Below are positions 21,468 through 37,960 of a stretch of DNA of 64,000 nt, piece after piece. Numbering within the stretch: the stretch's first letter is position 1; the number at the start of each line of letters is the position of its first letter. Below the pieces are notes generated by a model, which did not search any database, was not told the origin of the DNA, and saw only the letters and a list, made by a program, of their open reading frames with translations. The stretch is taken from positions 4,030,001 through 4,094,000 of the forward strand of contig CM034548.1 in the NCBI GenBank assembly GCA_020055645.1, in the 5' to 3' direction. The position numbers were made by a program, and so were the translations under genes. This DNA is from Tomocerus qinae. Lineage: Eukaryota; Arthropoda; Collembola; Entomobryomorpha; Tomoceridae.

Positions 21468-22720
21468 CCTCCCGAGTAGTAGTACGTCCTCAGTGATAAT
21501 ACTCACAGTAGTACTCCTACTAGTAGTACCTTCCGATAGTAGTACCTCCTAATAGTAGTACCTCCCACTAGTAGTACCTCCCACTAGTAGTACCTCCCAA
21601 TAGTAGTACCTCCTAATAGTAGTACCTCCCACTAGTAGTACCTCCCACTAGTAGTATCTCCCAATAGTAGTACCACCCACTAGTAGTACCTCCCAATAGT
21701 AGTACCTCCCAATAGTAGTACCTCCCACTGGTAGTACCTCCCACTGGTAGTACCTCCCACTAGTAGTACCTCCCAATAGTAGTACCTCCTAATAGTAGTA
21801 CCTCCCACTAGTAGTACCTCCCACTAGTAGTACCTCCCAATAGTAGTACCTCCTAATAGTAGTACCTCCCACTAGTAGTATCTCCCAATAGTAGTACCTC
21901 CCACTAGTAGTACCTCCCACTAGTAGTACCTCCCACTAGTAGTACCTCCCAATAGTAGTACCTCCTAATAGTAGTACCTCCCACTAGTAGTACCTCCCAC
22001 TAGTAGTACCTCCCAATAGTAGTACCTGCTAATAGTAGTACCTCCCACTAGTGGTACCTCCCAATAGTAGTACCTCCCACTAGTAGTACCTCGCAATAGT
22101 AGTACCTCCCAATAGTAGTACCTCCCAATAGTAGTACCTCCCAATATTAGTACCTCCCAATAGTAGTACCTCCCAATATTAGTACCTCCCAATAGTAGTA
22201 CCTCCCAATATTAGTACCTCCCAATAGTAGTACCTCCCAATATTAGTACCTCCCAATAGTAGTACCTCCCAATATTAGTACCTCCCAATAGTAGTACCTC
22301 CCAATATTAGTACCTCCCAATATTAGTACCTCCCAATAGTAGTACCTCTCCTGTAGTAATACTTCCCACTAGTAGTACCTCCGCTGTAATAATACTTCCC
22401 GCTAGTAATACTTCCCACTAGTAGTACCTCCGCTGTAATAATACTTCCCGCTAGTAATACCTCCCCTATGGTTATACCTCCCACTAGTAGTACCTCCCCT
22501 CTGTTAATACCTCCCACTAGTAGTACCTCCCCTCTGTTAATACCTCCCACTAGTAGTACCTCCCCTCTGTTAATACCTCCCACTAGTAGTACCTCCCCTC
22601 TGTTAATACCTCCCACTAGTAGTACCTCCCCTCTGTTAATACCTCCCACTAGTAGTACCTCCCCTCTGTTAATACCTCCCGCTAGTACTACCCCCGCTAG
22701 TACTACCCCCGCTAGTACTC
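21468..22720. repeat. Minisatellite, 16-bp unit (AGTAGTACCTCCCAMT), with higher-order variants
   Basis: About 75 tandem copies of a 16-bp unit occur, with ACTAGTAGTACCTCCC and AATAGTAGTACCTCCC as the commonest forms. Two higher-order patterns are visible. Around 22130-22330, units with AATAGTAG and AATATTAG alternate (32-bp period). At 22484-22690 a 33-bp unit (CTCCCCTCTGTTAATAC plus the 16-mer) repeats six times. Because 16 is not a multiple of three, the long open frames over it on both strands (GRYYYWEV-type and TSSTSPLLIPP-type peptides) are repeat translations, not genes. Confidence 0.95.
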
Positions 22721-36879: not shown

Positions 36880-37481
36880 CGAGTATCTACTGTTTAAAAA
36901 ATATTTTTATCAGTTAATTTCAAATCTGAATTTTGGGAGTGGTTCAAATGAATGGGGAGGGCTGAATTTAGGCAGCGGTACCTCGTTGCCGGTGTTGCCG
37001 TTGTTGCCGGTGTTGCCGGTACACATTGTTGCCAAATAACTTTCTTACCGGCGACACCGGCGACACCGGCAACACCGGTGACACCGGCAACAACGGCGAC
37101 ACCGGCAACACATTCCACATGCCCATCTGATTGCCTTTATCACTTATAGTTTAATATATAATTGAACAAGCGGTCCATATATTCCGGATATAACAAACAT
37201 GAAACATAACATAAATGAAATAAACAAATTCGACAGTTATCATTATGAGTAAAAAATTATTATGTTATGTTCGTTATATTCAAATCTGATAGAATGTCAA
37301 TTTTCCCCAGATCCCTCCTTATTTGTTTAATTCATTTAGGTTAGGTTTATTATATCCGCATTATATGGACGGCTAGATCTATATTAATTTATTATATATT
37401 ATACTACATAATATAAGTCATAAAGGCAATCAGATGGGTATGTGGAATGTGTTGCCGGTGTCGCCGTTGTTGCCGGTGTCA

Positions 37482-37512
<31 letters not shown>

Positions 37513-37960
37513 TAAGAAAGTTATTTGGCAACAATGTGTACCGGCAACACCGGCAACAACGGCAACACCGGCAACGAGGTACCGCTGCCTAAATTCAGCC
37601 ATGGGGAGAGTGGCGGGTACTTTTCCGCAACTTTTCGCTGTGGTGTTTCACTTAAAATTTTTTGAGCAAAACAGTGTTTGGCTTGAACACAATAAAAATT
37701 GTGTTTAATCTACGTTTTTAAAGGCTTTGATTCTTTTTTATTTTAATATATGTATTTAATATGTTTTGTTGTCGAGGTCCTTAAAGTGGTGACAGGCAAT
37801 CCTTTAAAAACGTAGTAAAAGGTATGAAAGGAACAAAAAACAAATTTTCCTATTTTTATCTCACGAACATAATTACTAGCTAGCTTAGATAGTCTTGAAA
37901 AAACTATTATATAATAGCAAATGTAGATTTTATAGATTTCAGTGCATTTCTCTTAGGAAA
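36880..37960 (+). repeat. Dispersed repeat family B, copy 1 (split by a fold-back element)
   Basis: This aligns with 62115-62610 on the same strand. Shared landmarks, in order, are TTAATTTCAAA, TTGGGAGTGGT, GCGGGTACTT, a TTTCAYTTAAAA block, TTGAGCAAAA, AACACAATAAAA, CCTTTAAAAACGTA and GTAGATTTTATAG. The 641-bp insertion at 36960-37600 interrupts copy 1 just after the TTGGGAGTGGT word. An inverted pair, CTACGTTTTTAAAGG (37710-37724) and its complement (37801-37815), also occurs. No coding capacity is visible. Confidence 0.7.
36960..37600. mobile_element. 641-bp fold-back transposon with minisatellite arms
   Basis: The element starts GGCTGAATTTAGGCAGCGGT and ends with its exact complement. It is flanked by the exact 8-bp direct repeat ATGGGGAG (36952-36959 and 37601-37608). 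The two arms (36960-37145 and about 37416-37600) are inverted copies with only about four differences by eye. Each arm consists of 9-bp GTTGCCGGT units, a spacer, then the complementary ACCGGCAAC/ACCGGCGAC units, so each arm can also fold on itself. The core is a more diverged inverted repeat (a GGTCCATATATTCCGGATAT-like block near 37171 and its complement near 37345-37372). The AGVAGVAG and TPATPATP frames over the arms are repeat translations. The 8-bp duplication would fit hAT, but the ends lack the usual CAGNG start, so the superfamily is uncertain. Confidence 0.85.

Follow-up and report, generated by a model that had tools for sequence, protein, structure and literature searches.

Results

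Organisation of the element in the window

The window, that is, the whole stretch of 64,000 nucleotides analysed here, contains a palindromic and gene-less element of 641 bp at 36960-37600, which is framed by two copies of the 8-bp target-site duplication ATGGGGAG at 36952-36959 and 37601-37608 (no strand). Its terminal inverted repeats, each of 203 bp, occupy 36960-37162 on the plus strand and 37398-37600 on the minus strand, and are complementary to each other at 193 of 203 positions. From the outside inward, the left arm is composed of the conserved 22-bp terminus GGCTGAATTTAGGCAGCGGTAC (36960-36981, plus strand), which starts with GG as in Merlin, an outer array of four 9-bp GTTGCCGGT units (36985-37020, plus strand), a 26-bp spacer between the opposed arrays (ACACATTGTTGCCAAATAACTTTCTT; 37021-37046, plus strand), a close variant of which occurs in the ends of the relic described below, and an inner array of about seven units in the opposite sense (ACCGGCRAC; 37047-37111, minus strand), from where the arm continues toward the middle. 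Correspondingly, the right arm has an inner array of seven units (37449-37511, plus strand), an outer array of four units with GTTGCCGGT as its complement (37540-37575, minus strand), and the conserved terminus (37579-37600, minus strand). The middle (37163-37397, no strand) is AT-rich, with a GC content of 0.27 versus 0.64 and 0.69 in the two arrays of the left arm. Thus, the exact duplication around a palindrome, the arms made of units followed by their complement, and the GC-rich minisatellite arms on an AT-rich core, all of which had been described in the sequence-only reading, are borne out.

The terminus, which gives the family its GGCTGAATTTAGGCAGCGG end, matches only 2 sites in the whole window at up to 3 mismatches, against 0.01 expected. 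Four open reading frames of at least 60 aa overlap the element, the longest being 88 aa, and none of them gave a Pfam match above the cut-off, two weak matches having E values of 0.0099 and 0.042. Additionally, Rfam gave 0 matches in the window at the gathering score, the terminus had 0 exact matches in viral contigs, and a scan for bacterial-type promoters and terminators, which is not meaningful for a eukaryote, stayed inside the range of shuffled sequences.

In computed folding, the whole element reaches -296 kcal/mol versus a mean of -76.4 in 20 shuffles (z = -42), and a single arm (36960-37115) reaches -58.6 versus -27.9 in 200 shuffles (z = -10). The two levels of folding suggested earlier, arm to arm and within each arm, are both predicted beyond chance, and a strand of the element would be able to fold on itself, as that of a foldback element.

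The element belongs to a dispersed family with target-site duplications and empty sites

The host genome assembly comprises 334 Mb spread over 115 contigs, of which five are large. Throughout this genome, the first 19 bp of the terminus with up to 2 mismatches were found at 1017 forward and 1032 reverse sites, with 0 and 0 for the reversed-pattern control, which points to roughly a thousand copies if solo or broken ends are counted. A motif within the arms, common to the window's subfamily and the ends of the relic, was found at 67 and 77 sites with up to 3 mismatches (control 0 and 0). From 60 loci, plus the loci L082 and L083, which were included because of their gene start, we obtained 35 distinct copies whose two ends lie within less than 1 kb of each other; the sample is non-random, L001-L030 being chosen by likeness to the window copy and L031-L060 being the first listed exact termini on contig C1.

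Among the 35 copies, 18 carry an exact 8-bp duplication, 5 an exact 9-bp duplication, 3 a duplication with one mismatch, and 9 none. Exact 8- or 9-bp duplications were thus found in 23 of 35 copies versus 0 of 1190 mismatched flank pairs, where the pairing script favoured the duplication-giving end among several possible ones and the mismatched-pair control was made without that preference. Exact duplications of 7 bp, the size made by Galileo elements and hence to be looked for in a Galileo/P family, were scored in none of the 35 copies. All 70 ends of these copies, which had been chosen by a terminus pattern allowing 3 mismatches, start with 5′-GG, and positions 20-22 of the terminus are T in 65, A in 70 and C in 64 of them. 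For 17 of the 23 copies that have an exact duplication, the two flanks were joined and searched for, and 40 of 1094 candidates were scored; empty paralogous sites spanning the junction were found for at least 3 of the 17 insertions (L011, L015 and L016), that of L011 occurring at nine places with 89-97% identity.

Therefore, with dispersed copies, their own duplications and empty sites, the observation is very unlikely to be an assembly artefact, and the window element is one copy of a large, mobile and dispersed foldback-type family. The foldback transposon supposed from the window alone is thereby supported, and the expected relatives exist as well, sharing the ends, carrying 8-9-bp duplications and differing in unit number. 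The copies are short, lack a transposase gene and are numerous with common ends, and so are MITE-like.

Several larger candidates were examined as autonomous elements and rejected. The 2.67-kb copy at C1:9134964-9137633, with a 9-bp duplication TCATAAGAC, and the 1.9-kb copy L088, with an 8-bp duplication TTGTAGAA, both lie outside the 35 copies and are non-autonomous family members that carry filler. L088 (C4:4459050-4461120) belongs to subfamily A, defined below, and includes a 431-codon open stretch that by eye resembles a LINE reverse transcriptase. C1:75071593-75083509 was not a second 12-kb element, as its right side is only a broken pair of ends, and the ends at C2:24738264 and C2:24742743 do not bound a 4.8-kb element but face each other across an inverted duplication. 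This locus (L084/L085, C2:24737650-24743350) holds two facing family ends, with an inverted duplication of 625 bp at 100% identity.

Arm arrays vary by whole units

In subfamily A, the window's kind, represented by 22 copies, the array lengths change by 9-bp steps, the exceptions being one array of 55 bp and the outer array of L029, which contains inserted sequence. The outer stretch ranges from 10 to 37 bp, or 205 bp in L029 with its insert, the inner stretch from 20 to 128 bp with 9 bp of spacer counted in, and the two arms are equal in only 2 of 22 copies. Tandem repeats in variable number within long inverted arms, as in foldback elements, are thus a property of the family. When the units were cut in a motif-free register in 21 of the 22 copies (L029 omitted), 8 of 9 positions of the outer units were at least 97% one base (142 units) and position 8 varied, and the inner units varied chiefly at positions 3, 4 and 8 (233 units).

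Subfamily B (e.g., L035, L047, L055 and L059) shares with subfamily A the terminus and the opposed GTYGCC-type units, and differs from it in having other, longer repeats and a different middle. At 9-bp spacing, opposed GTYGCC-type units were counted in both subfamilies and in the derivatives of the relic, GTNNCC having been preselected for this count. Three subfamily B copies, L047 (C1:9951290), L049 (C1:11200258) and L051 (C1:12631974), are centred in another palindromic repeat with inverted flanks of about 150-220 bp, which in L049 and L051 start with TACAGGGTGTC or nearly so; the insertion point is identical in the three and a direct duplication is absent, and the copies and the surrounding palindrome may move together as one composite. 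Concerted evolution of the arms was considered but not adopted: pairing was marginally closer within copies (30.1 bp) than after shuffling (36.5 bp), 58 of 5000 shuffles being as low or lower, in a test with n = 22, related copies and the L029 insertion counted, on which we place no weight.

A relic with the family ends encodes a Merlin transposase

The PF12762 (DDE_Tnp_IS1595) profile matched 19 places in the genome, the best match being the locus L061, where the protein P0001 is a 295-aa open stretch (E = 2.7e-20) and its residues D125, D188 and E226 do not vary when the protein is aligned with five sister proteins. L061 is located between family ends at C1:35673642 and C1:35686412, and so within a 12.8-kb copy that shares both the ends and the 9-bp units of the family; these ends were recognised among the about 100 of 2049 terminus places that were listed. 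At the right end of this relic (L081), the terminus is followed by the 9-bp arrays, a near-identical spacer and then the start of the gene, 250 bp inside the terminus. The gene start reads MDQVRLSLTKL..FSFAVHTGLI (MDQVRLSLTKLDVV..FSFAVHTGLI) and shares 18 of 40 positions with the beginning of the sister Merlin L066 (E = 2e-7). A further element, whose inverted repeats extend over at least 632 bp at 99% identity, interrupts the gene, and the pieces of the gene were searched separately, unjoined.

The flanks of the 12.8-kb relic, AAAATGAC and AGAACTAC, do not match as a duplication, and its left end is chimeric: on the left, both flank and duplication correspond to those at L025, at a distance of 124 kb, and the right flank picks up 306 bp past the L025 element. 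L025 (C1:35549391) and the relic's ends L080/L081 (C1:35673400-35686700) are paralogous loci with the common left side of one insertion, the second locus lacking the 306 bp to the right of the element and containing a larger element. On the simplest reading, two insertions in a duplicated locus would have recombined with loss of the intervening stretch.

In the flanks of about 1.5 kb around the 19 Merlin loci, the terminus was not found at up to 5 mismatches, the ends of L061 lying farther out, and the 6-mismatch matches at three Merlin loci look like chance. An intact transposase with family ends was not found, the split relic being the one transposase-bearing copy recovered. The autonomous relative to be looked for according to the sequence-only reading was recovered in part, namely as a relic that has the same ends and encodes a Merlin transposase, but is broken.

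The relic gene start also persists in short copies. L082 and L083, which are bounded by a family end on either side, retain the first 47 and 41 codons of the relic gene, with no matching duplication in either, and L059 has an exact 8-bp duplication and a diverged gene start (8 of 11 identical, E = 2e-4). Therefore, the small copies include internal-deletion remnants of Merlin elements.

Sister Merlin families in the same genome

A second Merlin family (L062-L065, L067 and L068) consists of elements roughly 1.8-2.4 kb in size. Their inverted repeats are long, and their two termini differ, one resembling GGCTAAATCC and the other GGAACAATCC. GG ends with exact 8-bp duplications were found in 4 of 6 copies, L063, L064 and L068 by script and L067 by eye, and no exact 8-bp duplication in L062 and L065. 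One end in the sister family is GGCTAAAT, and GGCT.AAT is common to the sister Merlin termini. At L066 (C4:13622505) and L069 (C4:24986966), Merlin transposases have opposed 13-bp arrays as well as 41-bp arrays on their flanks, L066 having in addition one open reading frame on each side that by eye is zinc-finger-like; both look like a larger composite Merlin. At L071 (C1:126448743), a Merlin transposase lies between opposed arrays (839-1023 and 2759-2885) of an 8-bp unit (CCAGCACC / GGGTGCTG).

Discussion

Based on these findings, we propose that the window family is, with high probability, a foldback family of the non-autonomous, MITE-like kind within the Merlin (IS1016/IS1595-related) superfamily, on account of its GG termini, its 8-9-bp duplications, the transposase of the relic and the L082 and L083 derivatives. 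Merlin elements are described as having GG termini, 8-9-bp duplications and inverted repeats of 24-462 bp (Feschotte, 2004, per PMC8101967, as far as summarised there). The exact 8- or 9-bp duplications in 23 of the 35 copies and the 203-bp inverted repeats of the window copy fall within these sizes, and a DDE_Tnp_IS1595 transposase lies between the same ends in the single split relic, which is without a matching duplication.

Most described foldback elements have been placed in Mutator, and the family could likewise be a Mutator family, with a Merlin relic that recombined with, or landed in, a foldback element; Tetris with its 8-10-bp and Tm1 with its mostly 9-bp duplications (as given in the accounts of PMC4079207 and PMC3169594) would agree with that, as would the chimeric left end of the relic and the absence of its matching duplication. 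However, the terminus, arrays and spacer lead to the start of the Merlin gene in the space of 250 bp, L082 and L083 hold this gene start between family ends, and L059 pairs a diverged gene start with an exact duplication; moreover, the termini start with GG, and the sister Merlins share GGCT.AAT. A Mutator origin is hence improbable in our judgement. Far less credible still is an explanation of the palindrome by assembly error or local inverted duplication instead of a transposon, although misassembly can yield opposed arms, a caveat raised when the window alone was read, and although perfect inverted duplications such as that at L084/L085 do occur in this assembly; the dispersed copies with differing flanks, the exact duplications and the empty sites strongly contradict it.

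As to the movement of this Merlin foldback family, its ends, duplications, empty sites and relic are the grounds on which we propose cut-and-paste transposition by a Merlin transposase in trans, the enzymatic step itself being what we infer. A Merlin-encoded transposase would recognise the GG-starting 22-bp ends and cut the element out, and insertion with a staggered cut of 8-9 bp would produce the flanking duplication. The transposase of the relic, or a close relative of it, presumably moved the family, and the small copies would have arisen by internal deletion of Merlin elements and subsequent elongation of the arms.

The opposed 9-bp arrays may possibly be multiplied binding sites of the transposase, their number drifting through slippage or unequal exchange, a tentative proposal made by analogy, because the arm repeats of Galileo hold transposase-binding sites. 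The 9-bp core recurs in subfamilies with unlike middles, which fits binding arrays, and common descent fits too. Alternatively, the arms could be without a role, by-products of slippage and unequal exchange in a palindrome of which the terminal 22 bp alone matter for transposition; we give this an even chance. The unit number varies freely, with equal arms in so few of the subfamily A copies, and subfamily B combines the same ends with different inner repeats, both of which favour roleless arms, and passive slippage accounts for the variable counts at least as well as binding arrays do. Against roleless arms, the opposed GTYGCC-type units, counted with GTNNCC preselected, recur in A, B and the derivatives of the relic, and all positions of the outer unit but one are nearly fixed, a conservation that common descent could also explain.

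The foldback elements FB of Drosophila and TU of the sea urchin also have arms of short tandem repeats, and TU makes 8-bp duplications; the likeness to them is one of arm design by description, not of compared unit sequences. A sea urchin foldback element is mentioned in PMC4079207. Repetitive arms are familiar from foldback elements as a class, most of which have been assigned to Mutator, according to the passages of PMC4079207 and PMC3169594 considered here. Tetris of Drosophila virilis resembles the present family in being non-autonomous and in having long inverted repeats with variable tandem repeats and duplications of similar size, but its units are about 220 bp and its arms up to 1735 bp; described without a transposase, it was put in Mutator by duplication size and earlier suggestions on foldback elements (PMC4079207, in part). 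Similarly, Tm1 of Meloidogyne has composite inverted repeats, with a motif of about 14 bp in varying number, and both MITE-like and transposase-bearing members, but is labelled Mutator/Foldback and most commonly makes 9-bp duplications (PMC3169594, in part). Galileo of Drosophila shares the long, internally repetitive arms, with transposase-binding sites inside their tandem repeats, but belongs to the P-element superfamily and has a THAP domain (PMC3688188, in part).

Within Merlin itself, GG termini, duplication size, inverted-repeat length and the DDE_Tnp_IS1595 domain in the same-ended relic agree with the families of PMC8101967, as far as that account was available; those families carry transposase, whereas the family here is gene-less, amounts to about a thousand copies by end count and consists largely of opposed 9-bp arrays. 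The same source, in the part considered, describes tandem repeats within some Merlin families and one repeat region duplicated in opposite orientation, and its main text does not contain the words foldback, MITE or nonautonomous. A Merlin foldback family of such build was not found among the titles and beginnings of abstracts searched, which were mostly from outside subscription papers and Repbase. The sequence-only reading, which knew of no named family like this one, lacked the superfamily, here identified as most likely Merlin. Long inverted arms with tandem repeats are already known from foldback elements, and a hairpin-armed Merlin of such build is little known.

Through the relic and the deletion derivatives, a foldback family with repetitive arms is tied to an actual transposase lineage, Merlin, in contrast to Tetris, which was classed without a transposase, and 8-9-bp duplications together with foldback arms alone do not imply Mutator. 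In addition, the many natural copies with differing unit numbers provide a resource for asking whether the minisatellites of the arms serve as arrays of transposase-binding sites or arise passively. More speculatively, and rather unlikely in our estimate, the Merlins of this genome might have acquired foldback arms repeatedly, each time from minisatellites specific to the lineage (GTTGCCGGT here, the 13- and 41-bp repeats at L066 and L069, and CCAGCACC at L071), with the units as putative binding sites diverging with each transposase; if this were true, foldback families put in Mutator without a transposase, e.g., Tetris, would need re-examination as possible Merlins.

Other repeats in the window and genome

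The window also contains a minisatellite of 1.2 kb (21507-22717), in which a 16-bp unit (AGTAGTACCTCCCACT) is repeated about 75 times with 86% matches. TTAGG runs occur at 235 and 296 sites in the genome, and those among the matches listed are all on C1, where they are scattered.
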